NCBI GenBank assembly: GCA_033344875.1
Contig: JAWPMO010000001.1
Coordinates: 2,629,595-2,693,594 of the forward strand
Origin: Ilumatobacteraceae bacterium
GTDB taxonomy: Bacteria; Actinomycetota; Acidimicrobiia; Acidimicrobiales; Ilumatobacteraceae
Direction: 5' to 3'
Length of the DNA: 64,000 nucleotides
Shown: positions 3,670-46,240 of the stretch, piece by piece
Position numbering within the stretch: position 1 is the stretch's first letter
Layout: each line of letters begins with the position of its first letter
Made by a program: the position numbers and the translations under genes
Notes under the pieces: generated by a model
Seen by the model: only the letters and a program-made list of their open reading frames with translations
What the model was told of the DNA's origin: nothing
Database searches by the model: none

Positions 3670-5643
3670 CTACTGGCCGCTCGGCACGGTCAGGCAGCGG
3701 CACCCCGCGTGGGCGGGTGCTGCGACGTGCCCGGTCGGGTACGCGTCGCCCGCGGCGACCTCTCCGGCCAGCGAATTGTCCTCGCAGTCGGCGCAGGTCG
3801 ACTCGGACGGATCGATGATCCAGGTCAGCATGGTGCCGGGCTTCACGCCGGCGGCCAGACCGCCCCCGTGAGCGAACCGGAACGCGTCGTCGAGCTGGTC
3901 GTCGATGTGCTGGGTCTTCCACTCGCGGTAGACCGCGCGAACCCGTTTGGTGACGTCTTCGTTGTCGCCGCCGCCGTCGCTGATCGCCCGCTCGAGGCGA
4001 GCCCGGAGCGGAGCGACGAGGTCGTCTCGGACGACCGCATGCGCCCGCTCGAGTGCCCCACCCTTGGTGATCGTGGTGCGCAGCGTCTTGGAGTCGCGCT
4101 TGCCGACCTCGGCCGCACCGGCGATCGCGGCGTCGAGCAACTCGTCGGCGAGCGCACCGAGGTAGGTATCGACGTGATCGTCGACATCGGCGATCAACTG
4201 GTCGAGCTGGGTGACGGCCTGCTTCTGGCGGAGCCGATCGAGCACACCGTTCTGCTCGTCGGCCAGGACACGCTTGAGCTTGCGGGCGCCGCCGACGATC
4301 AGGGGCACCAGCGCCTCGTCGCGTCGCATGAAGGCCGTGGCCTCGGCGACGCCCGGGTCGTCGTCGGCTCCGACGTCGGCCGCCGCCTCGGCGTCGAGTT
4401 CGGCTCCGACGTCGTCGATGTCGTCGATGTCAGTGGTCTCGTCGGTGAGGGCCGGGGCCTCGCTCCGCAACCGCTCGAAGATCCCGCCCACGTCGGGGCG
4501 CTCGTCGGTCGCCGACTCCTGGTCGCTGCCGTCGGCCTGCCGCGCCGCGTCGACGTCCGACTCGGCGACGTCCGACTCGGCATCGTCATCGTCGGCGGCG
4601 TCGGTGTGCTGGTCGGGCCGGCCGCGGAACAGCGATACGACGTTGGCGTCGCGCGGCGGAACGGGCGCGGGTGCCTCGTCGCCGGCGGTCTCGTGGCTGC
4701 CGTCGGTCTCGATCGGGATCGTGTCGTCGGCCTCACCGATCGCCGCGTCGTCGTCCGTGTCGTCGTCGGTCTCGTCGGTCTCGACGGTCTCGACGGATTC
4801 GGTGGCATCGACGGCCCCGGTGGGTGTGTTCGTCGCGGCCTCGTCGACGTCGTCGTCGTGGAACTCGTCGACCGCCCGCTCCTGCGCGTCGAGGTCGACC
4901 GGTTCGCTCGCCGGGCCGGCCTGGTCGCGATCCATGTCGCTCGCCGGCACCATCAGCGGCAGCGGGCCCGTGGTCGGCGAGAAGTTGACGAACTCGGCCG
5001 GTCCCTCGACGGACTGCAGTTCGGAGGTGACGTCGACCGCGACGAGGCGGGCCCGCTCGAACACCTGGAGCAGCCGGTCTCGGCCGTGGACCAGGTCTTC
5101 GATCTGCTGCCGCGCCAACTTGGTCCGTCGCTCGAGGTCGGCCAGCACCCGCTCGCGGTAGGCGCGCGCCTCGTTGACCATCTCACGGCCCTGCTGCTTG
5201 GCCAGCGCGACCTCGGCCTCGGCGTCGGACGTCGCATCGTGGCGCTTGCGGGCGGCCTCGACCTCGGACTCCTGGCGCAGCCGGTTGACCTCGTCGTTCG
5301 CGTCGTTGAGGATCTTGGCGGCGGTCTCCTCGGCGCGGATCTTGATCTGCGACGCCGACTCGCGGGCCGTCTGCAGCACCCGCAGGGTCTCCTCGCCGAG
5401 CAGCGCGGCGACGGTCTCGTCGTCGAGTTCGGGGGCGGGCACCGCGGCCGCTTCGGCCTCGGCATCTCGCAGTCGGGCTTCGAGCTGACGCTCCCGTTCC
5501 TGCAACCGGCCCAGTTCGGCGGCGACCGACGTCAGGAACGCACGGACCTCGTCCTGGCTGAAGCCGCGTCGAGACGTGGAGAAACCGGCCTCCGCCACCG
5601 ACGCGGGCGAGGAGGGGTCTGGTCTCGAGAGCGAGGCAGCCAT
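3670..5643 (-). CDS. DivIVA-like coiled-coil protein with C-terminal MuF/gp7-like Cys-His motif
   Basis: A 657-residue protein. Residues 21-42 (FSTSRRGFSQDEVRAFL...) match the DivIVA N-terminal pattern F-x3-RGF-x3-EV-x2-FL, followed by a long coiled coil (about 45-190). A very acidic Asp/Glu/Thr linker spans about 215-420, then a helical region. The last 50 residues carry W-x2-D-x4-CxxC (Cys617, Cys620) and P-x-H-x2-CRC (His645, Cys648, Cys650). That layout resembles the end of phage Mu F / SPP1 gp7 head-morphogenesis domains (PF04233-like). ATG 5643 fits the DivIVA alignment. It sits 52 nt downstream of the Lon-like gene and 12 nt before UPF0182. A pole or division-site scaffold is inferred from the N-terminus; the C-terminal role is unknown. 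No other phage gene is nearby. Confidence 0.82.
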   Translation of the reverse strand: MAASLSRPDPSSPASVAEAGFSTSRRGFSQDEVRAFLTSVAAELGRLQERERQLEARLRDAEAEAAAVPAPELDDETVAALLGEETLRVLQTARESASQIKIRAEETAAKILNDANDEVNRLRQESEVEAARKRHDATSDAEAEVALAKQQGREMVNEARAYRERVLADLERRTKLARQQIEDLVHGRDRLLQVFERARLVAVDVTSELQSVEGPAEFVNFSPTTGPLPLMVPASDMDRDQAGPASEPVDLDAQERAVDEFHDDDVDEAATNTPTGAVDATESVETVETDETDDDTDDDAAIGEADDTIPIETDGSHETAGDEAPAPVPPRDANVVSLFRGRPDQHTDAADDDDAESDVAESDVDAARQADGSDQESATDERPDVGGIFERLRSEAPALTDETTDIDDIDDVGAELDAEAAADVGADDDPGVAEATAFMRRDEALVPLIVGGARKLKRVLADEQNGVLDRLRQKQAVTQLDQLIADVDDHVDTYLGALADELLDAAIAGAAEVGKRDSKTLRTTITKGGALERAHAVVRDDLVAPLRARLERAISDGGGDNEDVTKRVRAVYREWKTQHIDDQLDDAFRFAHGGGLAAGVKPGTMLTWIIDPSESTCADCEDNSLAGEVAAGDAYPTGHVAAPAHAGCRCLTVPSGQ

Positions 5644-33794: not shown

Positions 33795-36449
33795 TCACCC
33801 GTCGGCGAGGAATCCCCAGTCGGCAACGCTGACGATCGGGCCGAGTGACGGCGCGACCGACACCCCGCCGATGTCGTCGCGGAATGCGGTGAAGGCCGGC
33901 TCCACGTAGAGCGGGACGGCGGGGACACCACCGACCAGCATCTCGTCGATCTCGGCGAACACCGACGCTCGCTCGACCGGGTCGCCCGTCGCAGCTGCCT
34001 GCTCGAATGCGTCGTCGAGATCGGCGTCGGCGTACGCACCGACGTTCACGCCGCTGCCGTCGCACCCGTCGATCGTGGCGGGGCATGCGTCCGACGCGAA
34101 CGAGAACTCGGTGGCGATCGGGTCGCTGTTGAGGATCCGGTACTGCAGCAGCAGGTCGAACGCACCGGTCGTCAGCCGCTCGTTCGTCAGCGCCACGTTC
34201 GCCGGCGTGCCGGTGATGTCGATCCCGATGTCCTGGAGGGCCGTCTCGACCGCGAGCGCGGTGTTGATGCTGTCGGAGTCGGCGTTGAGCACCAGGGTCA
34301 GCGCCAGGTCCTGGCCGTCCTTGCGGCGGAACACCGTGTCGTCGGGCCGGACCCATCCCGCCTCGTCGAGCAATCGCTCTGCTTCCTCGACGTCGTGCAG
34401 ATCGGCGAACGGTTGGTCGTTGCCACGTTGCGCCGGAGCGAACACGAGGCTGTTCCACGGCGCCGCGACCGAGCCGGTCTTGCGCCCCACTGCGATGTCC
34501 GCGATGAGCGCGCGGTCGAGCGCGTGGAGGATCGCCCGCCGCACCAGCGGGTCGGCCAGCGGCCCGGACCGAAGGTTCAGGGTCAGCTGTACGCCGACGT
34601 CGGCGTCGCCGACGATCACGGCGGTGTCGTCCAGCGCTGCGGCGTCGAGCACCTCGGTGCGTTCGATGTCGTCGACCCAGATCATGTCGACCTCACGGCG
34701 ACGCTGCGCCTCGACGAGCGCGTCCGAGTCGGGGTAGGTCGCGAACGCCACTCGATCGAGCGCCGGTGCCGTGCCGGTCCAGGCCGGGTTCCGTGCGAAC
34801 GCGACCTCACCGGGATTCTGTCGCGTGGCCAGCTGGTACGGACCCGCCGAGAACTCGACCCCGTCGGCGAGGAACGTCGCTGCGGTCCCACCGCTGTCGA
34901 GGTGACCTCGCCAGGCCGCCGCCGAGACGATCGGATGGATGGTCGAGAACATCAGGTACGCCGCGCCGTTGGGTTCGGCCAACTCGATCTCGAGCGTGAC
35001 CTCGTCGACGGCTACCACGGCGATCACGTCGTCGTAGAGCGCGGTGTTGACGGCGTTGGTGCCCGGTGTGGTGAGGTACTCGAACGTCGCGACGATGTCG
35101 GCGGTCGTGACCGGCTCGCCGTCGTCCCAGACCCGATCGTCCCGGATCGACCAGCGCAACACGAGGGGGTCGTCGCCGGCGACGGGTGGTCCGGTGGCCA
35201 GGCTCGGGTACGGGTCGAGCTGTGCGTCGATCTCGTACATGACCGGCAGCACCGAACCGGCGAACAGCTTCGCGGTGTCGAGGCTGGCGTGGGGATTGGC
35301 TTCGGACAGGTCGAGGCTCGTGCCGACCTCGACGCTGCCACCGGATCGGAGTGCTGGAACGTCGGCTTCGCTCGTCGGAACCGACGACACGGCCGGCGTC
35401 GAGGGAGCCGACGGTGCCGTCGACGCGACCACCGCATCGGCCGTGGTGTCCGTGTCGGTCACGACGGACGTGCCGGTCACGACGGACGTCTGAGCCACCG
35501 GGATCGCGCCATCGTCGACCGGTGCGGCGGCCCGGCGACCGGCCAGCACCAGCCCGCCGACCACGACCAGCGCTCCGACGAGGACGAGCGCCACGACGTG
35601 CCGGCGTCGGGGACGCGGCCGAGCGGTCGGGCCGGTTTGCTCGCTTCCGCTCGACCCGATCGGGAGCGCGGCGACCAGATCGGCGGCGCGGTCGAAACGG
35701 TCGTCCCGGTCCTTGGCCAGGGCGCGGGCGAAGAACCCGTCGAGCGCCGGGTCGCCGGTCGGCGGGATCTCGTCGACCGAGTGGGCGAGCAACGTGCTGA
35801 CCATGTCGTCACGGGCGAACGGCGACCGGCCTGTGACGGCGTGGAACGCGACGCAGCCGAGCGCATAGATGTCGGACCGATGATCGACCGGTTCACCGCG
35901 GGCCTGCTCGGGCGCCATGTATTCCGCAGTCCCGATACTGCCCGTCGTGTACCGCCCCAGTTCTCGGGCCGAGGCGGCGATCCCGAAGTCGCTCAGGTAC
36001 GGCCGGCCGTCCTCGATCAGGATGTTCGCCGGTTTGACGTCGCGATGGATCAGACCGGTCGCGTGGGCAGCGTCGAGCGCGTCGCCGATCGGACGGAGTA
36101 CGGCGGCGACGGCGGCCGGCGACATCGGTGCGTCGCGCTCGATGACGTCGGCGAGCGTCTCACCGTCGACGAGCCGCATCGCGAGGTAGTACAGGCCGTC
36201 GTCGTCACCGGCCTCGTACACGGGCACGATCGACGGATGATCGAGCGAGGCCGCCGCTCGCCCCTCGCGCTCGAACCTGCGGGCTGCCGTCGGGTCGCGG
36301 GCGACCAGTGGATCGAGCACCTTGACGGCGACGTCACGGTCGAGTCGGAGCTGGCGGGCTCGCCACACCGATCCGAACGACCCCTCGCCGAGTGGCTCGA
36401 CGAGTTCGAAACCGCCCAACCGGCGCCCGTGCAGATCGTCCCCGGCCAT
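33795..36449 (-). CDS. Receptor Ser/Thr kinase fused to an extracellular SBP_bac_5 peptide-binding domain
   Basis: An 884-residue fusion. The kinase (about 12-265) has LGEGSFGSVWRA, ATP-site Lys43, catalytic IHRDVKPANIL (Asp137), DFG at 154-156 and APE at 179-181, all intact. One membrane helix spans 284-304. A Thr/Ser/Ala linker leads to a domain of about 510 residues resembling oligopeptide/nickel-binding proteins (SBP_bac_5): DDPLVLRWSIRDDRVWDDGEPVTTADIV, ADPLVRRAILHALDRALIAD, EEAERLLDEAGWV. Binding-protein domains usually feed ABC transporters; here the domain is tethered outside a kinase, so a peptide-sensing receptor is inferred. It is divergent, 80 nt away, from an ATPase/winged-helix regulator. 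A TACGCT box lies 7 nt before ATG 36449. Confidence 0.93.
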   Translation of the reverse strand: MAGDDLHGRRLGGFELVEPLGEGSFGSVWRARQLRLDRDVAVKVLDPLVARDPTAARRFEREGRAAASLDHPSIVPVYEAGDDDGLYYLAMRLVDGETLADVIERDAPMSPAAVAAVLRPIGDALDAAHATGLIHRDVKPANILIEDGRPYLSDFGIAASARELGRYTTGSIGTAEYMAPEQARGEPVDHRSDIYALGCVAFHAVTGRSPFARDDMVSTLLAHSVDEIPPTGDPALDGFFARALAKDRDDRFDRAADLVAALPIGSSGSEQTGPTARPRPRRRHVVALVLVGALVVVGGLVLAGRRAAAPVDDGAIPVAQTSVVTGTSVVTDTDTTADAVVASTAPSAPSTPAVSSVPTSEADVPALRSGGSVEVGTSLDLSEANPHASLDTAKLFAGSVLPVMYEIDAQLDPYPSLATGPPVAGDDPLVLRWSIRDDRVWDDGEPVTTADIVATFEYLTTPGTNAVNTALYDDVIAVVAVDEVTLEIELAEPNGAAYLMFSTIHPIVSAAAWRGHLDSGGTAATFLADGVEFSAGPYQLATRQNPGEVAFARNPAWTGTAPALDRVAFATYPDSDALVEAQRRREVDMIWVDDIERTEVLDAAALDDTAVIVGDADVGVQLTLNLRSGPLADPLVRRAILHALDRALIADIAVGRKTGSVAAPWNSLVFAPAQRGNDQPFADLHDVEEAERLLDEAGWVRPDDTVFRRKDGQDLALTLVLNADSDSINTALAVETALQDIGIDITGTPANVALTNERLTTGAFDLLLQYRILNSDPIATEFSFASDACPATIDGCDGSGVNVGAYADADLDDAFEQAAATGDPVERASVFAEIDEMLVGGVPAVPLYVEPAFTAFRDDIGGVSVAPSLGPIVSVADWGFLADG

Positions 36450-36456
36450 CGTCGCG

Positions 36457-36462
36457 AGCGTA
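36457..36462 (-). promoter_or_regulatory. -10 box (TACGCT) of the receptor-kinase gene
   Basis: TACGCT on the minus strand, 7 nt before ATG 36449. Confidence 0.5.
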
Positions 36463-36516
36463 GGCCAGCCCCGCCGCGCCGGGGCACGACCGCCCGTCCG
36501 CGCCCGTCCGGAGCAC

Positions 36517-36522
36517 TACCGT
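36517..36522 (+). promoter_or_regulatory. -10 box (TACCGT) of the STAND-type regulator gene
   Basis: TACCGT ends 7 nt before ATG 36530. It faces away from the receptor-kinase promoter in an 80-nt intergenic stretch. Confidence 0.5.
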
Positions 36523-36529
36523 CGAGTCG

Positions 36530-39043
36530 ATGGCGGGCCGGCCGAAGCTCCTCACGCGAGCGCCACGAATCGACGAACGGCTCGTCCGGCCGCGCCTGGT
36601 CGACGCCGTGGCGGACCACCCGATCGTGATCGTGTCCGGCCCACTCGGGTCGGGCGTCACGACCGCTGCCGCACAGATCGCGGCGGCGACGCAGCCCGGT
36701 TCGACCATCGCCTGGTGCCGACTCTCGGCCGGATACGACACCGCCGGCGACCTCGTCGGCATGGTCGCCGAGACGCTCGGCCGCGAACCCCCGCCCGTGC
36801 GCCGGGTCATCGAACTCGCCGACCAACTCCTCGAGCTCGCCGAGACCGGCCCGCTCACGATCGTCGTCGACGACCACCAAATCGCCGCCGACGGCGACGT
36901 CGACCGGATGCTCGCCGAGTGCGCCGGGCTCCTGCCACCGGGCACGCGCATCATCGTCGCGGCATCGACGCGACCGGCGGGACTGATCGGCCTGCTCCCG
37001 GCATCGCTTCGGGCGGTGCTGGGTCCGGATGACCTGGCGTTCACCGATGACGAGGCCGTCGCACTGTTCGAACGACACGGCGCCCACGCCGCAGCGGCCT
37101 CACGGTGGAACCGCGAACTCGGCGGATGGGCACACGGCATCGACGCCGGCGCCCACGCCCCCGACCGCGACCCGGCGCTCCACCTCGCCGCGCTGCTGGA
37201 GCAACTCGTCGCGGCCGATCCGACCGGCGGCGACCTGGTCGACGCGGCCGCAGCGACCACCTACCTGACCCACGGTCTCGCGACCGGGCTCGGCATCGCG
37301 ATCTCGCCGGATGCGCTCACCTCCCTGTCGGCCTCGTCGCCGCTCCTCAGCGACCACGACGGGTACGTCCGCCTGACCGAACTCGCCGCGACGACACACC
37401 GCTCGGCGATGACGCCGGAGCGCGTCCTCCAGCTCCGACGAGCGGCGGCCGGCATGATCGCCGACGACGACCCCACGACGGCGATCGACCTGCTGCTCGA
37501 TGCCGACGCGCCGCACGCCGCCGCCGACGTGCTGGCCGACCATCTCTCCGAGATCGGTGTCGAGCGGGCACTGAACTGGCTCTACCGTCTTCCGGCCGAT
37601 CTCCGTCGACGCTTCCCACCGGTCCTCGCCGCGGGACAGGCCACCGTCGAGGTCGACGTCGCGCTCGCCGACGCCGAGACCCGGGTCGCGCGGGCGACCT
37701 CCGAGCGGTCGCGACGCGAGGCGCTCCTGGCACTCGGATCGGTCGAGGCACACCGGGGCGAGCTGGCCGCCGCCGCCTCCGCGTTCGAGGCCGCCCTCCG
37801 CACGACGAACGCCGACCCCGCATCGGCCGAACGCATCTCCGCCGAGTTGGCGGCGACGCGCTGGTACCTCGGCGACATCGTCGGAGCACGCGCTGCGCTC
37901 ACCACCGTGGGTCACTCCCCCTTCGGCAGGTGGCTGACCGCCCAGATCGACATCGTCGACGCGACGCCACCGACGACCACCGGCATCGAGACACACGACA
38001 CCGACGACGTCTACACCCGCTCGACCGAAGCGCTCGTTGCGCTGACCGGGCCGACCGACGACAAACGGGCCGCCGAACTGGCCGCGGCGGCGTACGCATC
38101 GGCGGTCGACGGCGGTGGCGATCCCTTCGTGGCGGCCTCGGCGGTCTACGCGTGGAGCCTGCTGCGAATCGGGCGCGTCGACGAGGCGCTCACGGTCGCC
38201 GACACACTCGAGCGTCGTGTCGGCCCCCGGCATCATCTCGGCCGTCTCCACGGCGCGATCATCCGCGAACGGTGCAGTCGGGTAGGCGACGACACCGGAC
38301 GCAACGATCGCGACCGACGACGACTCCGCGATCTCCGCGCCCGTGGCTTCGCGACGGTCGAGCAACTGGCATCACGTGTGCTCGACGAGTCGACGAGCAC
38401 GGCCGTCGACGGGTCGATCGAGGTGCAGGTGCTCGGCGAGCACGCGGCCCGGTGCGACCGACGACGGATCACCCGCTCCGACTGGAAGTCGAAGAAGGCG
38501 TTCGAGGTACTGACCGTGCTCGCTGCCGGTGGTGCAGGCGGACGTCGCCGCGAGGAGGTCATCGAAGCCGTCTGGCCGGGACGGCCGCCCGACAAGGGAC
38601 GCACCCTGCTGCGGACGGCGCTGAGCGAGATCCGCCGAGTGCTCGAACCCGAACGACCGCCCGGCGAGCCGTCGAGGCACCTGGTCGCCGGCGACGATGT
38701 CGTCACCGTCACCGGGCGCCTCGACCTCGACCGCATCGAGGCGGCGCTCGACACCGACCCGACCGCCGCCTTCGAGGAACTGCGCCCCGGCCTGGCCCCG
38801 ACCGTCGCCTCCGCCGAGTGGGCCCAGGACTGGGCGGGACAGGTCGAACGCCTCACCGTGCGGGCCGCCATGCAGGTGCCCGACGACGCCGAACGCCCCC
38901 AACGCATCGCTGCGTTGGAGGCGTTGATCGGGGCCGAGCCCTGGCAGCGGGCCCACTACGACTCGCTCGCCCAGCTCCATCGGGAGGGCGGTGACGAGGC
39001 GGCGGCAGCCGACGTCGAGCGTCGCTGGTTCGCCGACGATTGA
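36530..39043 (+). CDS. STAND/MalT-like ATPase regulator with C-terminal winged-helix and BTAD-like region
   Basis: An 837-residue regulator. The N-terminal ATPase-like domain (about 10-250) starts with the MalT-family lead RAPRIDERLVRPRL. Its P-loop reads GPLGSGVTT (37-45), with Val43 where Lys is expected; Walker B is TIVVDDHQ (Asp114, Asp115). A TPR-like helical region follows (about 280-600). From about 625 comes an OmpR-type winged helix (SDWKSKKAFEVLTVLAAGG... REEVIEAVWPG... LLRTALSEIRRVLEP), then a BTAD-like helical end. Most SARPs carry the winged helix at the N-terminus. Streptomyces AfsR, with similar parts, is phosphorylated by kinase AfsK; the divergent receptor kinase suggests a similar pairing. 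The stop abuts that of the convergent secreted-protein gene. Confidence 0.85.
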   Translation: MAGRPKLLTRAPRIDERLVRPRLVDAVADHPIVIVSGPLGSGVTTAAAQIAAATQPGSTIAWCRLSAGYDTAGDLVGMVAETLGREPPPVRRVIELADQLLELAETGPLTIVVDDHQIAADGDVDRMLAECAGLLPPGTRIIVAASTRPAGLIGLLPASLRAVLGPDDLAFTDDEAVALFERHGAHAAAASRWNRELGGWAHGIDAGAHAPDRDPALHLAALLEQLVAADPTGGDLVDAAAATTYLTHGLATGLGIAISPDALTSLSASSPLLSDHDGYVRLTELAATTHRSAMTPERVLQLRRAAAGMIADDDPTTAIDLLLDADAPHAAADVLADHLSEIGVERALNWLYRLPADLRRRFPPVLAAGQATVEVDVALADAETRVARATSERSRREALLALGSVEAHRGELAAAASAFEAALRTTNADPASAERISAELAATRWYLGDIVGARAALTTVGHSPFGRWLTAQIDIVDATPPTTTGIETHDTDDVYTRSTEALVALTGPTDDKRAAELAAAAYASAVDGGGDPFVAASAVYAWSLLRIGRVDEALTVADTLERRVGPRHHLGRLHGAIIRERCSRVGDDTGRNDRDRRRLRDLRARGFATVEQLASRVLDESTSTAVDGSIEVQVLGEHAARCDRRRITRSDWKSKKAFEVLTVLAAGGAGGRRREEVIEAVWPGRPPDKGRTLLRTALSEIRRVLEPERPPGEPSRHLVAGDDVVTVTGRLDLDRIEAALDTDPTAAFEELRPGLAPTVASAEWAQDWAGQVERLTVRAAMQVPDDAERPQRIAALEALIGAEPWQRAHYDSLAQLHREGGDEAAAADVERRWFADD

Positions 39044-40510
39044 TCAGTCGACGCCGCAGCGCGTCAGCCAGTGGGCCGATCCGTCGTGCAGTGCGAGGTT
39101 GGCATCGTTGGTGACCGTCGATCCGTCGGTCAGCGTGAACTCGACCGTGAAGGGGATCGCCTCGGGGAAGGTGATGGCGCCGTTCGGGGTGTCGAGGTCG
39201 AGCGGGCCGGGGACCCCGACCGAGAGCGTCTCGGCACCGGTGATCGAACCGGCGGTTCGGGCGACGTACTCCGAGCAGACCGACTCACCGAACGCCAGCG
39301 GCACCGAGGGGTGGAGGGTGGCGAGCAGGTCGTCGACGTTGCCGGTCGTGTGGTCGTCGACGAAACCGATCAGGAAGTCCTCGACCTCGGCCTCGGCGTT
39401 CGCCCGCTCATCGGCTGCGTCGGCCTGCTCATCGGCTGCGTCGGCGGTGTCGTCGGCGTCGACCTGGGAGTCGAAGTCGAAGCACTCGTCGTCGAACACC
39501 GGACCCTCGTCGGAGTCGACCGGGAACACCACGCCGGGACCCTCGTCGAGCGTCGGCAGCAGGTCGATCGGATCCGAGGAGTCGGCGCCCTGCAGGTCGA
39601 ACCGGGTGAGCTCGTGCTCGCCGTAGCTGTTGATGCCGAGCGGCGTCTCGAACGCTCCGTCTTCGACCGGCACCTGGACCGGCTCGCCGCCGTTGATCGT
39701 CGGGCCCTCGACCCAGATCCAGCCACCGTCCAGGCCGTAGACCTCGCCGCGGACCCAGATGCCGGAGGCGGCGTTCTGCTCGGCGACCTCGGCGTGGCGG
39801 ACGTCGACGCACACCTGCCGGAGCCCCGGAGGCCCGGCGGCCACCTCGTCGGTGGCCGAATCGGTGTCGTCACCGGTGTCGTCGGTCGTCTCGTCGTCGG
39901 CCGTCTCGTCGGCGGTCGTCTCGTCGGCGGTCGTCTCGTCGCTCGGCTCGTCGACGACCAGCGATGTCTCCTCGTCGCCGGCGGCATTCGGCGGCGTCAT
40001 CTCGAACCACAGGTCGTCGAGGTCACCGTGCTGGTCCGGGGTGACGTATTCGATTTCGACCGTGAGGCTGGTCGTGCCGTCGGCATGCTGCACCTCGGTC
40101 ACCGTGAGGTAGATGCACAGGTAGACGTTGTCGCAGGGCGGGCCGCCGACCTGCGTCGCCCCGCCGTCCTTGTCGTCGCGGGCTCGGTAGCCGGTCGGCT
40201 CGTCGGCCACGACGACGTAGGTGCCGGCCTTCGGCGTGAACGAGAGTGACGCCTCGCCGGTCGAACCCGTCGTCCCGGACGTCACGGTGGCGCCGGTCGC
40301 GTCGAGCAGGCGGACGGCCACGCCGCTGAGCGCCTGCTGCGACGTGTCACGCGCCGACACCGTCAGCGCCTGCTCGGTCGTCGGATCGGCGGGGACGATG
40401 GGATCGCCGGCGGCGCTGTCGTCGCCTCCGGCGATCACGAAGAACCCGATCACGAGGGCGATGATGCCGATCAGGGCGGTGGCTGCTGCGGTGGTGCGGT
40501 TGAACTTCAT
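39044..40510 (-). CDS. Secreted/anchored protein with Ig-like (CnaB-type) domain and acidic linkers
   Basis: A 488-residue exported protein. The N-terminus MKFNRTTAAATALIGIIALVIGFFVIAGG is an uncleaved signal anchor. Residues about 45-105 fit a carboxypeptidase-regulatory/CnaB-like beta-sandwich (SQQALSGVAVRLLDATGATVTSG...GEASLSFTPKAGTYVVVADEPTGY). A strongly acidic Thr/Asp/Glu repeat follows (DETTADETTADET...), then beta-rich sequence, an Asp/Ala-rich coil (AADEQADAADERANAE) and a C-terminal region like a small transport- or ketosteroid-isomerase-like domain (FLIGFVDDHTTGNVDDLLATLHP). Cell-surface location is predicted; function unknown. Stop codons of this gene and the convergent regulator abut. 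Confidence 0.78.
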   Translation of the reverse strand: MKFNRTTAAATALIGIIALVIGFFVIAGGDDSAAGDPIVPADPTTEQALTVSARDTSQQALSGVAVRLLDATGATVTSGTTGSTGEASLSFTPKAGTYVVVADEPTGYRARDDKDGGATQVGGPPCDNVYLCIYLTVTEVQHADGTTSLTVEIEYVTPDQHGDLDDLWFEMTPPNAAGDEETSLVVDEPSDETTADETTADETADDETTDDTGDDTDSATDEVAAGPPGLRQVCVDVRHAEVAEQNAASGIWVRGEVYGLDGGWIWVEGPTINGGEPVQVPVEDGAFETPLGINSYGEHELTRFDLQGADSSDPIDLLPTLDEGPGVVFPVDSDEGPVFDDECFDFDSQVDADDTADAADEQADAADERANAEAEVEDFLIGFVDDHTTGNVDDLLATLHPSVPLAFGESVCSEYVARTAGSITGAETLSVGVPGPLDLDTPNGAITFPEAIPFTVEFTLTDGSTVTNDANLALHDGSAHWLTRCGVD

Positions 40511-40632
40511 GACGTGCTCCTCACGTTGCGGTTGGTGTATCGACACCTTCCGCCGGCATCGTGAGAACGGCGTGAAACTCGCCGGCACCGTCCGACGGGA
40601 TCGAGCCGATGCGGCTCTGCCAAGATCACCGA

Positions 40633-41664
40633 ATGAGCAAGCTGAACGACGACCCGCGCATCGATCCTCGGATCAAGGCCCTGCTCGGCGGCCTGCCGAG
40701 CGTGCCCCAGGCGGACGTGAGCGACCGGGCCGAGCTGCTCGCGGAAGCGCACTCACCCGAGGGCCTCGCCGAGCGTCAGCTCGCCGACACCCTGATGGAC
40801 TCGCTCGACAGCGTGGACATCGCTCCCCGCGCGGGTCTCGACATCAGCACGCTCGAGTTCACCTCGGCACCCGACGGCAACACGGTCAAGATCCAGCTGA
40901 TCCGCCCGGAGGGCGACGGCCCGTTCCCATGCGTCTACTACATCCACGGTGGCGGCATGCAGACGATGTCGTGCTTCAACGGGATGTACAGCACGTGGGG
41001 CCGCCTGATCGCCCACCAGGGCGTCGCGGTCGCGATGGTCGACTTCCGCAACGCGCTCCACGCCTCGTCGGCACCCGAGGTCGAGCCGTTTCCCGCCGGG
41101 TTGAACGACTGTGTGTCGGGGCTCCGCCACATCGTGTCCAACGCATCCGAACTCGGCCTCGACGCCGACCACGTGATCGTGGCCGGTGAGAGCGGCGGCG
41201 GGAACCTCACCCTCGCCACGGGCATGCAACTGGCCCGCGACGGCGACATCGGTCTGATCCGTGGGCTGTGGGCACTGTGCCCCTACATCGCCGGCGAGTG
41301 GCCGCAGGACCGGTTCCCGTCGTCGATCGAGAACAACGGGATCCTGCTCGACCTGGCGTCCAATCGCGGCAGGCACGCCTACGGGATCGAGGCGTTCGAG
41401 GCCGGCAACCCACTGGCCTGGCCGTCGTTCGCCACCGAGGACGACGTGCGCGACTTCCCCGCGACCGTGATCAGCGTCAACGAGTGCGATCCGCTGCGCG
41501 ACGAGGGCATCGAGTTCTATCGGCTGCTCGTGAGGGCGGGCGTCGCCGCCCGCTGCATCCAGGCGATGGGAACGGTCCACGGCACCGAGGTGTTCGCCGT
41601 GTCGTGCCCCGACATCAGCGCCGAGCGGGCGGCGAGTATCGCCGAGTTCTGCCGGAACGCCTGA
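40633..41664 (+). CDS. Alpha/beta hydrolase (HSL/acetyl-esterase family)
   Basis: A 343-residue carboxylesterase-like hydrolase. The oxyanion-hole motif is YYIHGGGMQTM (family HGGG). The nucleophile elbow is VAGESGGGNLTLA. A charge-relay Asp lies near SVNECDPLRDEG and the His in GTVHGTEVF. These are the marks of the hormone-sensitive-lipase family, which hydrolyses short acyl esters. No signal peptide, so cytoplasmic. ATG 40633 is used; the longer in-frame start at 40609 lacks support. It converges with the SDR gene, 11 nt between stops. Confidence 0.9.
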   Translation: MSKLNDDPRIDPRIKALLGGLPSVPQADVSDRAELLAEAHSPEGLAERQLADTLMDSLDSVDIAPRAGLDISTLEFTSAPDGNTVKIQLIRPEGDGPFPCVYYIHGGGMQTMSCFNGMYSTWGRLIAHQGVAVAMVDFRNALHASSAPEVEPFPAGLNDCVSGLRHIVSNASELGLDADHVIVAGESGGGNLTLATGMQLARDGDIGLIRGLWALCPYIAGEWPQDRFPSSIENNGILLDLASNRGRHAYGIEAFEAGNPLAWPSFATEDDVRDFPATVISVNECDPLRDEGIEFYRLLVRAGVAARCIQAMGTVHGTEVFAVSCPDISAERAASIAEFCRNA

Positions 41665-44434: not shown

Positions 44435-46240
44435 TCAGAACTCGCGCCAGGAGACCAGTTCGCCGGTCACGATGATCCGGTACAGCAAGCTCGTCGGCGC
44501 CCACGGGTCGGGGTAGGCGCTCTTGGTCCGGTCGTAGCCGACCGTGCACGCCACCAGCGACATCGTCGTGCCGGGGTGGAAGCGGGTGGCCGCGAGGATG
44601 TTGGCGTTGTTCTTGTCGGTCAGGTCGCGCCGCACCACGCGGTACGTGTACTCGCGACGATCCCCCGACGAGACCGTGAACAGGTCGCCGGTCTTCAGGT
44701 AGTGGAGGTACCGGTACGGTCCCCCCGCTTCGGTGCGGTGCCCGAACAACGCCACGTGAGCGTTCTCGGTGCCCAGGTACCCCGTCCCCGACCAGTGCCA
44801 ACTGTGACCGGAGTCGGTGATGCTCGCGGCGTTGCCTTCGTAGACGGTGCTCGTCAGACCGATCGGTGGCACCTGGAGAATCCACGGGGGCGGCGGGGGC
44901 GGCGGTGTCGGATTGACGTACACCGGCTGCTGCGCCGCCTTGGGTGCGCCGGTGAAGTAGCCGGCGAGGTCGACGAGCACGTGTGCGCCGTGCGACGAGA
45001 AGACCTGCACGCCGTGGGTGGCCGTGACCGGCGTGATCACGTGGTTCGGCACGACCTGCCCGGCGCCGGAGAAGTTGACGTTCGACGTCGTGGTGATCCG
45101 CTGGCGGGCACCCGTGACCGTCAGGAAACCCGGCCCTCGGGTCTCGACGCCGGTCACGTTGGCCACGATCGCCGACGCGTTGGCGGCGATCGCCGCGGGC
45201 ATCTTCACCTCGACGACCCAGTTCTGCCAGAGCTTGCCCATCTGGCCCGGCAGGCGCGTGTCGAGCAACCGCACCGGGTCGACCGGGACGAACAGCCCGT
45301 TCTCGGACGACGAACTCGTCTCGCCGGTGAAGTGGCCGACGACATCGACGATCAGCTTGGCCGGGAACAGCGTGAAGACCTTGATGCGCCGTCGTCCGTC
45401 GATCGTCGGGACCGGCACGATCACGCCGGCGGCGCGGGTGTCGCCGGCGCGGGACACGTTGAGGCTCGATGTGCCGGGGTCTTCGTCCTCGGTGGCGTCG
45501 TACGGCAGCGCCGTGAAGAAGCTCGGCCCGGTGGTCTCGGTCGCGGTCAGGTTGACGACCACCGACGAGGCGTCACGCGGCACGTACCTCGTGACGTCGA
45601 CGACGGTGTACGACCGGCTCGCCACGAGATTCGGACGGGTGTCGAGTGCACGCTGCGCGTCGGCGAGACCGACGAACCGCCCTGCCGTGACCGCCGAGTC
45701 GACGGGCTCGTAGTAGCCGAGCACGTCGACGATCACGTCACACCCGTTCAGCCAGTAGACGTCGATCGAGCCGCCGTCCCCGAGCTTGACCGTGGCGAGG
45801 TTGGCGTTGACCTCACCGGGCGACACGAGGTTGAGGTTGCTGGCGATCGGCACCTCACCGCCCGCCGGGAACACGGTGACGAAGTTGGGTTGCGAACCGT
45901 TGACGGCGGTCACCGTCAAGACGGCCGCCGACGCCTGCGGCGAGACGTCGTGTTCGCCGGCGACGACGACGCGGACGCGATTCGGGTCCGGCCTCGTGAA
46001 GGCGTATCGGGCCGGCTCGCGGGTGTCGACGACACGAACGGCCGACGGCAACGCCACGAACCGGCTCGCTCCGGCGGGGCTCGCCGCCGCGGCGGACCCC
46101 GTCGGGACGGTGACGGCGATCGCCGCGACACCGGCTGCGGCCCCGGCGCCCGCCAGGAAACGGCGACGGCCGAGCCGAGCGGCACCGACGACCTCGTCGC
46201 TCGACGGGTCGAGTGGTGTGGAGGGGTCGAAGGCGCTCAT
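44435..46240 (-). CDS. Tat-exported sortase-domain protein with three beta repeats
   Basis: A 601-residue exported protein. A twin-arginine signal GRRRFLAGAG (Arg25-27) and hydrophobic stretch end near 50. Three repeats of about 117 residues (about 60-177, 188-305, 316-431) each start FV..(A/P)VR..DTR and end VDV.GY/HF; such modules recur in actinobacterial secreted proteins. A Pro-run (445-453) leads to a sortase-like domain: VALFGHRT (His501), SLVACT (Cys565), LLYRIIV (Arg588), the full sortase triad. Class E-like sortases normally have N-terminal membrane anchors; a Tat signal plus repeats is unusual. No LPxTG-type substrate gene adjoins. AGGAG precedes ATG 46240. Protein-anchoring or pilus-like work is inferred. 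Confidence 0.88.
   Translation of the reverse strand: MSAFDPSTPLDPSSDEVVGAARLGRRRFLAGAGAAAGVAAIAVTVPTGSAAAASPAGASRFVALPSAVRVVDTREPARYAFTRPDPNRVRVVVAGEHDVSPQASAAVLTVTAVNGSQPNFVTVFPAGGEVPIASNLNLVSPGEVNANLATVKLGDGGSIDVYWLNGCDVIVDVLGYYEPVDSAVTAGRFVGLADAQRALDTRPNLVASRSYTVVDVTRYVPRDASSVVVNLTATETTGPSFFTALPYDATEDEDPGTSSLNVSRAGDTRAAGVIVPVPTIDGRRRIKVFTLFPAKLIVDVVGHFTGETSSSSENGLFVPVDPVRLLDTRLPGQMGKLWQNWVVEVKMPAAIAANASAIVANVTGVETRGPGFLTVTGARQRITTTSNVNFSGAGQVVPNHVITPVTATHGVQVFSSHGAHVLVDLAGYFTGAPKAAQQPVYVNPTPPPPPPPWILQVPPIGLTSTVYEGNAASITDSGHSWHWSGTGYLGTENAHVALFGHRTEAGGPYRYLHYLKTGDLFTVSSGDRREYTYRVVRRDLTDKNNANILAATRFHPGTTMSLVACTVGYDRTKSAYPDPWAPTSLLYRIIVTGELVSWREF

Follow-up and report, generated by a model that had tools for sequence, protein, structure and literature searches.

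Does the divergent gene pair at positions 33795-39043 of the DNA analysed here encode a complete signaling path, running from an extracellular ligand to the promoters of its target genes? The stretch, referred to as the window, comprises 64,000 nucleotides from an Ilumatobacteraceae bacterium (assembly GCA_033344875.1, contig JAWPMO010000001.1, positions 2,629,595 to 2,693,594 of the forward strand), whose genome (G000) is a single contig of 4.97 Mb. One gene of the pair encodes a Ser/Thr kinase joined through a membrane helix to a solute-binding protein (SBP) domain of the SBP_bac_5 type, and the other encodes a putative transcriptional regulator. The architecture of the fusion, the fold of its ectodomain, the conserved pairing and the conserved promoter boxes before genes of exported-looking proteins were all computed here. 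Based on these results, we give a probability of about 0.58 to a one-locus path in which a ligand acts through the kinase and the regulator on surface-protein genes.

The kinase-SBP open reading frame (ORF) occupies exactly 33795-36449 on the reverse strand and encodes 884 residues, so that kinase, membrane helix and SBP_bac_5 part lie in one polypeptide. Its Hanks-type Ser/Thr kinase domain (residues 1-265; 35655-36449, reverse strand) accounts for the Pfam Pkinase match of the whole protein (7.8e-43, 147.2 bits against a cut-off of 31.7). The P-loop, VAVK, HRDxKPxN, DFG and APE motifs are intact in this kinase and in its four full-length relatives from other genomes, with which the domain shares 63-80% identity. 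By its motifs the protein is an intact Hanks-type kinase, and phosphotransfer is predicted. A hydropathy scan detects one hydrophobic segment, at residues 282-309 (35523-35606, reverse strand) behind an Arg-rich stretch, and likewise one segment at the corresponding position in all six fused proteins. The intact kinase motifs and the single membrane helix described in an earlier note, made from the sequence alone, are thus both present. More specific models match the kinase region: NCBIfam StpK7 (NF052427) covers residues 8-347, the kinase plus linker, at 229 of 900 bits, far under its cut-off, and its matches are restricted to kinase and linker in the four fused proteins tested; the NCBIfam AfsK model reaches 101 of 1300 bits over residues 8-402. 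Many PADLOC models of the defense kinase PD-T4-6 match the kinase part as well (best 2.4e-82, residues 7-282), as expected of a generic kinase; two match the regulator weakly (4.3e-3), and none matches the exported protein encoded at 39044-40510.

The ectodomain (33798-35345, reverse strand) spans 516 residues, close to the 510 or so suggested earlier. It matches Pfam SBP_bac_5 (PF00496) at 3.4e-53 and 181.5 bits (cut-off 32.4), and five relatives also score above the cut-off. Its sequence alone matches solved SBPs with E-values down to 5.2e-23, and a profile built from it and 29 relatives reaches NikA, AppA and DppA-type proteins at E < 1e-80. The AlphaFold2 model, computed from 30 sequences, has a pLDDT of 90.4 with both lobes present and aligns over its entire length with YliB (1uqw: Z 36.5, rmsd 2.6, 475 residues), NikZ and Mycobacterium tuberculosis OppA (Z 36.1). 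According to this model, the ectodomain is a full-length SBP_bac_5-type fold. The earlier note held that an ectodomain outside SBP_bac_5 would speak against its proposal; the Pfam, structure and sequence matches all place it inside. The fused proteins additionally carry a cysteine pair, C789 and C796, which is kept in 6/6 of them and in 0/26 ordinary SBPs (alignment A4).

What the ectodomain binds is less constrained by these comparisons. The titles of the nearest solved relatives name peptides, nickel complexes, haem, glutathione, sialic acid and EDTA. Loss of the acidic residue in the column of DppA Asp408, which we take to be the anchor of the peptide N-terminus, was considered as a sign of a new ligand and rejected, since none of 30 SBPs (4 fused, 26 ordinary) has Asp or Glu there. 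Because ordinary SBPs also lack it, this reading was dropped; the column, the only pocket residue tested, is uninformative on the ligand.

The genomic setting of the ectodomain is unlike that of an importer subunit. Pfam detected no binding-protein-dependent permease (PF00528) in the ten neighboring ORFs scanned within 25460-46240, nor in 40609-41661, and tblastn of three such permeases against the whole window at E 0.01 gave no match, in agreement with the earlier remark that no ABC permease lies nearby. The genome holds 16 SBP_bac_5 genes, and only 33795-36449 coincides with a kinase match; for the 15 others, a permease match lies within 2.4 kb in 13 cases and at 5.6 and 8.5 kb in two. The six fused proteins group as one clade (support 100/100) when 44 SBPs are placed in a tree, and the closest non-fused SBPs come from Kitasatospora, Streptomyces and Actinomadura (L047, L048 and L101; support 99/95). 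By reading, these three differ in having no kinase motif in their open frames, lipobox-like starts and a permease gene within about 5 kb (Pfam-confirmed for L101 only), with another SBP gene beside it in L047 and L048. The L047 (2919-5606) and L048 (5159-7843) SBPs lie behind a large PAS-GAF-SpoIIE-HATPase protein, assigned by Pfam in L047 only and by its similar start in L048.

The second gene of the pair begins 80 nt away on the opposite strand, as noted earlier: the regulator ORF is exactly 36530-39043 on the forward strand and encodes 837 residues. Close homologues of the kinase-SBP protein occur in three genomes of the same family, namely G132 (66% identity), G052 (63%, cut by a contig end) and G101 (43%, from the same genus as the window genome), and further ones in G241 and G314, from other families of the same order. 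The kinase-SBP/regulator pair is thereby found in six Acidimicrobiia genomes in all, and it is divergent in 5/5 loci with visible adjacency, with gaps of 80, 68, 41, 76 and 115 nt. Contig ends truncate both genes in G052; in G132, a genome about 69% complete, the regulator gene runs off the end of the short kinase contig. The regulator was found in 4 of 221 family genomes searched and the kinase-SBP gene in 4 of 150, and these are the same four, although each search scored just 2 to 6 candidates per genome, so that the absences are soft and misses possible. Moreover, the identities of the kinase-SBP proteins and of the first part of the regulators diverge in parallel (r = 0.96; ten pairs, five loci), a correlation that could in part be explained by shared ancestry alone. 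A regulator homologue was found within about 5 kb of none of eight other kinase genes of the genome; given this and the recurrence in five loci, chance adjacency was rejected. The co-occurrence of the regulator, which the earlier note had proposed to check, therefore extends to the relatives.

In a scan of 84,980 species genomes, the best 80 of at least 519 confirmed relatives were examined for an upstream open frame; together with ten class-level matches these gave 90 loci, and a kinase lies in the SBP frame in three of them, L043, L044 and L045 (G101, G241 and G314, respectively), all Acidimicrobiia. Among 396 genomes of the phylum searched with a full-length profile at E 1e-90, the window genome alone matched; the class-level and phylum searches, too, scored just 2 to 6 candidates per genome, which leaves their absences soft. 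In one further locus, from an Anaerolineae metagenome-assembled genome (L110 12951-13775, reverse strand), a kinase is encoded some 4 kb away from the SBP_bac_5-type gene and outside its frame; the two are separate proteins and possibly another linked pair.

The regulator consists of an N-terminal nucleoside triphosphatase (NTPase)-like part, helical repeats, and a putative C-terminal winged helix plus BTAD-like part (38408-39040). On the whole protein, the sole Pfam match is a weak NTPase (22.1 of 34 bits), and NCBIfam MalT matches the N-terminal part at 1.4e-5 but with 23.3 of 537 bits, far under the cut-off. When the C-terminal part was searched alone, Trans_reg_C, the OmpR-type winged helix, was found in 3/3 relatives (best 3.1e-4), the window protein reaching 17.5 of 26.2 bits, and BTAD in one of three relatives (5.2e-3). 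The comparison with the AfsR structure 8hvr gave a weak match (E = 0.12). The earlier description of the regulator as AfsR/MalT-like consequently stands for the kind of parts (NTPase, helical repeats, winged helix) and falls as family membership, the scores being below cut-off and the SARP part C-terminal. The Walker A motif reads GxGKS in G101, G241 and G314, and its Lys is replaced in the window (GSGVT) and in G132 (GSGCT; L013 5767-7347); the last residue is Ser or Thr in 5/5 regulators. In AfsR, this last residue is reported to be phosphorylated upon AfsK treatment (PMC10936776), and by analogy it may be phosphorylated in the present regulators too. Between the two genes lies a divergent promoter region of 80 nt (36450-36529), in which a TA...T -10-like hexamer stands a few nt ahead of each start codon. 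By eye, this layout is the same in 5/5 loci, and the position of the hexamers suggests leaderless transcripts of both genes.

A third gene adjoins the pair. It encodes a predicted membrane-anchored exported protein of 488 residues (39044-40510, reverse strand; start taken at 40510 behind AGGAG), is a predicted target of the regulator, and ends base to base with the regulator gene. The protein comprises an N-terminal anchor, a prealbumin/CarboxypepD_reg-like domain (weak, below cut-offs), a middle domain and a C-terminal NTF2-like domain (39047-39391). The last comprises 115 residues with two invariant Cys; no Pfam family covers it at E 1, and it is unique in the window genome at E 0.01. The NTF2-like fold is assigned from a model built on four sequences (pLDDT 95.2), which aligns with 3hx8 (Z 10.2, rmsd 2.5, 96 residues) and with many further NTF2-like entries. 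A homologue of this domain adjoins the pair in G101, G241 and G314 and the regulator fragment in G052. Its position varies: the gene flanks the regulator in the window and in G052, and the kinase in G101, G241 and G314. A search of 221 family genomes for the third gene gave eight positives, of which G000, G101 and G052 matched at E < 1e-49, all with the pair. For the five weaker matches (4.4e-15 to 3.0e-8), no kinase or regulator homologue was found in the surrounding stretches fetched; they were rejected as cassette members for this reason and taken as other NTF2-like proteins.

The window protein (P0009) has a full-length homologue in G052 (P0010, 48% identical). P0010 in turn matches P0014 of G241 over the middle (1.4e-10), P0011 of G314 over the N-terminal part (1.8e-5) and P0013 of G241 over the C-terminal domain (1.0e-14); from P0009 itself, the P0013 match was found (1.2e-14), and the P0014 and P0011 matches were not found at E 0.01. 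It seems from these matches that the window protein joins parts that are separate predicted targets elsewhere. About 4 kb from it, the window also encodes a 601-residue protein (44435-46240, reverse strand) whose start is Tat-like and whose C-terminal domain is a sortase (Pfam 1.8e-13).

Upstream of the third gene lies a SARP-type tandem repeat, TTTCACG-CCGT-TCTCACG (40560-40577, reverse strand), with one mismatch to the consensus TTTCACG-N4-TTTCACG, followed at a fixed distance by a -10-like hexamer, xANNNT (40545-40550, reverse strand). The consensus was derived by eye from the upstream regions of the third genes and then used as a scan pattern; it is present upstream of the third gene in all five genomes where that gene was seen. 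When up to one mismatch is allowed, 14 sites occur in the roughly 24 Mb of the six genomes, against one for a backward control pattern. Nine lie in cassette loci, of which the window and G052 contribute one each, G101 three, and G241 and G314 two each, and five elsewhere, namely four in G241 on two other contigs and a second G000 site; G101, G052 and G314 have none outside the cassette at this threshold. Thirteen of the 14, from five genomes, stand at most about 65 nt before the hand-picked start codon of a gene for an exported- or anchored-looking product. A clear hydrophobic segment is found in 12 of these 13 products, the thirteenth, L014c, being under the threshold. Some of the products are related across genomes (L014b/L187b, 1.8e-48; P0011/L188a, 1.2e-12). 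L014b and L187b both end in a hydrophobic stretch followed by an Arg-rich tail. Two predicted targets (L014 2086-3573, reverse strand; L039 3945-5330, forward strand) carry short repeats of the type DDCLxYLExxPELLDxDxxLxxxC, with several copies in the L014 protein, and two long near-perfect hairpin sequences lie upstream of the G052 predicted target gene (L042, about 3895-4022).

The bases of the -10-like element were not part of the search pattern. Across 13 aligned sites, from which the second G000 site was omitted, A occurs at offset 28 in 12/13 and T at offset 32 in 13/13; both bases occur together in one of seven background sites of the same stringency (no more than one mismatch) and in none of five two-mismatch sites of the own genome. 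The omitted site (1418490-1418507; L189 4491) has one mismatch, lacks the -10-like element, precedes a gene with a sigma-factor-like C-terminal end and was taken as chance. Since the background is about 0.25 sites per Mb (103 listed sites in 205 family genomes, total length estimated), chance does not account for nine sites within some 60 kb, and a chance origin of the cassette boxes was rejected on the counts (14 versus 1) and on the -10-like element (12/13 versus 1/7). Shuffles of single loci at three mismatches were not significant in the window (29 of 100 reach the count) or L045 (69 of 200) and weakly significant in L014 (8 of 200) and L044 (14 of 200). The case for the box thus rests on the near-exact sites taken together. 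For comparison, AfsR acts at afsS through a 22-bp box that is made up of two 11-bp direct repeats and overlaps the -35 element (PMC10936776). Collectively, these observations suggest that the box is a candidate binding site of the regulator, in a SARP-type arrangement upstream of predicted targets.

For this locus we infer ligand sensing, phosphotransfer, binding of the regulator to the box, and activation rather than repression. The tethered ectodomain, no longer feeding an ABC permease, would close on a small extracellular ligand, which may be a short peptide, a metal chelate or another ligand of the same SBP class. Closure, or ligand-driven dimerization, would be transmitted across the single helix and render the cytosolic kinase active. 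The kinase would then phosphorylate the regulator of the divergent gene. This modification, probably in the NTPase/helical-repeat part, would free the C-terminal winged helix-BTAD part. Two regulator copies might bind side by side on TTTCACG-N4-TTTCACG in the -35 position and bring RNA polymerase to genes whose products are exported and anchored, chiefly the adjoining gene of the NTF2-like protein. The earlier note's idea of a self-contained path from ligand through kinase to transcription factor is thus strengthened by a conserved SARP-type box before exported-protein genes, a feature absent from that note, while its kinase-SBP fusion is not new in kind. A more sweeping formulation, which we put forward tentatively and would not expect to hold in full, is that the system is a Ser/Thr counterpart of a two-component system: a captured ABC-type SBP, a kinase, a dedicated SARP-type regulator and a box-defined surface-protein regulon, all passed on together, while the ectodomain shifts its ligand specificity between lineages and the window regulator is switched by phosphorylation only. 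The last element follows from the loss of the Walker A Lys in the window lineage, which would leave phosphorylation as its only switch.

Several results weigh against this path. The winged-helix and BTAD assignments of the regulator are weak, and the scan of G132 gave no box with at most one mismatch. At the same threshold, one or more sites occur in 70 of 205 family genomes, where the control pattern is frequent as well, so that a single site proves nothing. In addition, G016, of the same family, has three perfect boxes on three contigs (L195 8163, L196 8344 and L197 8183) with no pair detected. Their -10-like A is present in 3/3 and T in 2/3; by reading, the products encoded behind two of them have a hydrophobic stretch at the N-terminus, and an L014b/L187b-related sequence lies behind the third. 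Either a diverged regulator was missed by the thresholds or the box belongs to a wider regulator group. A look for the regulator covered the three box loci and 20 of the roughly 160 contigs, each over at most its first 20 kb, and found none. Finally, AfsK phosphorylation hardly activates transcription by AfsR, and ATP binding does more (PMC10936776), so the kinase may act on the regulator only weakly.

The AfsR result favors a different division of labor, in which the regulator with its exported targets is a separate regulon that responds, in the AfsR/MalT manner, to a nucleotide or other cytosolic signal, and the kinase is only co-inherited and acts mainly on other substrates. The G016 boxes, standing apart from any detected kinase-SBP gene, and the Walker A Lys kept in three of five regulators are consistent with it. 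In contrast, the four family genomes with the kinase are also those with the regulator, the two genes are divergently arranged in five of five loci, and their sequences diverge in parallel, all of which speaks against a kinase that mainly serves elsewhere; the loss of the Lys in the window and G132 fits poorly with a nucleotide as the main switch. We consider this arrangement unlikely, though worth keeping in view.

Two further explanations concern the ectodomain rather than the regulator. It might sense a protein partner, most simply the neighboring anchored exported protein, which would create a feedback loop at the cell surface. In five of six genomes the gene of the NTF2-like anchored protein adjoins the pair (in G052, the regulator fragment), on varying sides; the cysteine pair is specific to the fused-SBP clade, and signaling SBPs can dock on proteins, as in MBP-Tar and the TMAO-binding protein with TorS (PMC6069109). 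A full-length SBP with both lobes in the model speaks against this, and we regard a protein partner as distinctly improbable. Still less credible is a decayed or purely structural SBP tether on a constitutive kinase. The missing permease would agree with it, as would the identities between the window and three distant loci, 35-38% for the ectodomains versus 63-64% for the kinase domains; a change of ligand, however, would equally be expected to yield a diverging ectodomain on a conserved kinase. Moreover, the frame is open in six genomes, the ectodomain alignment of the fused proteins retains 91 invariant columns, and the SBP fold is confidently predicted. The one-locus path from ligand to surface-protein genes remains our preferred reading.

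How far is such a system already known? SBP domains fused to Ser/Thr kinases have been published: Bhattacharyya et al. (2018, PMC6069109) cite MSMEG_1200 together with 260 other 'SBP kinases', and MSMEG_1200/StpK7 resembles the present protein in joining kinase and solute-binding domain in one polypeptide. In contrast, the StpK7 profile has 601 positions, presumably too short for a kinase plus a 516-residue SBP_bac_5 ectodomain, and the part of that paper available to us mentions no divergent regulator for MSMEG_1200. In GlnH-GlnX-PknG of mycobacteria and corynebacteria, a solute-binding protein likewise controls a Ser/Thr kinase, but through three separate proteins, with an amino-acid SBP and a metabolic target rather than a transcription factor (PMC6069109). 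AfsK-AfsR of Streptomyces is similar in its kinase gene near a regulator with nucleotide-binding, TPR and SARP parts and in the two 11-bp direct repeats (PMC10936776). In AfsR, however, the SARP part is N-terminal, before NOD and TPR, whereas it is C-terminal in the window regulator, and the window-type box differs in preceding genes of exported-looking proteins. The sensor part of AfsK itself is of another kind than an SBP_bac_5 ectodomain. With the ordinary SBP_bac_5 proteins of ABC importers (NikA, OppA, DppA, YliB), the ectodomain shares fold and sequence family, but it is tethered via a membrane helix to a kinase without an adjoining permease. No report of an SBP_bac_5 kinase with a dedicated regulator and box was found among openly licensed full texts. 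The kinase-SBP fusion as such is known; what appears new is the SBP_bac_5 type with a paired regulator and box.

Because sensor, kinase, transcription factor and predicted promoters lie in one locus, stimulus, phosphotransfer and output could be assayed together with a reporter, and the locus is a good candidate for learning what such bacterial kinases sense. It also provides a likely context for families of anchored exported proteins, some of them without a Pfam name, and suggests a route by which the binding protein of an importer becomes a receptor.

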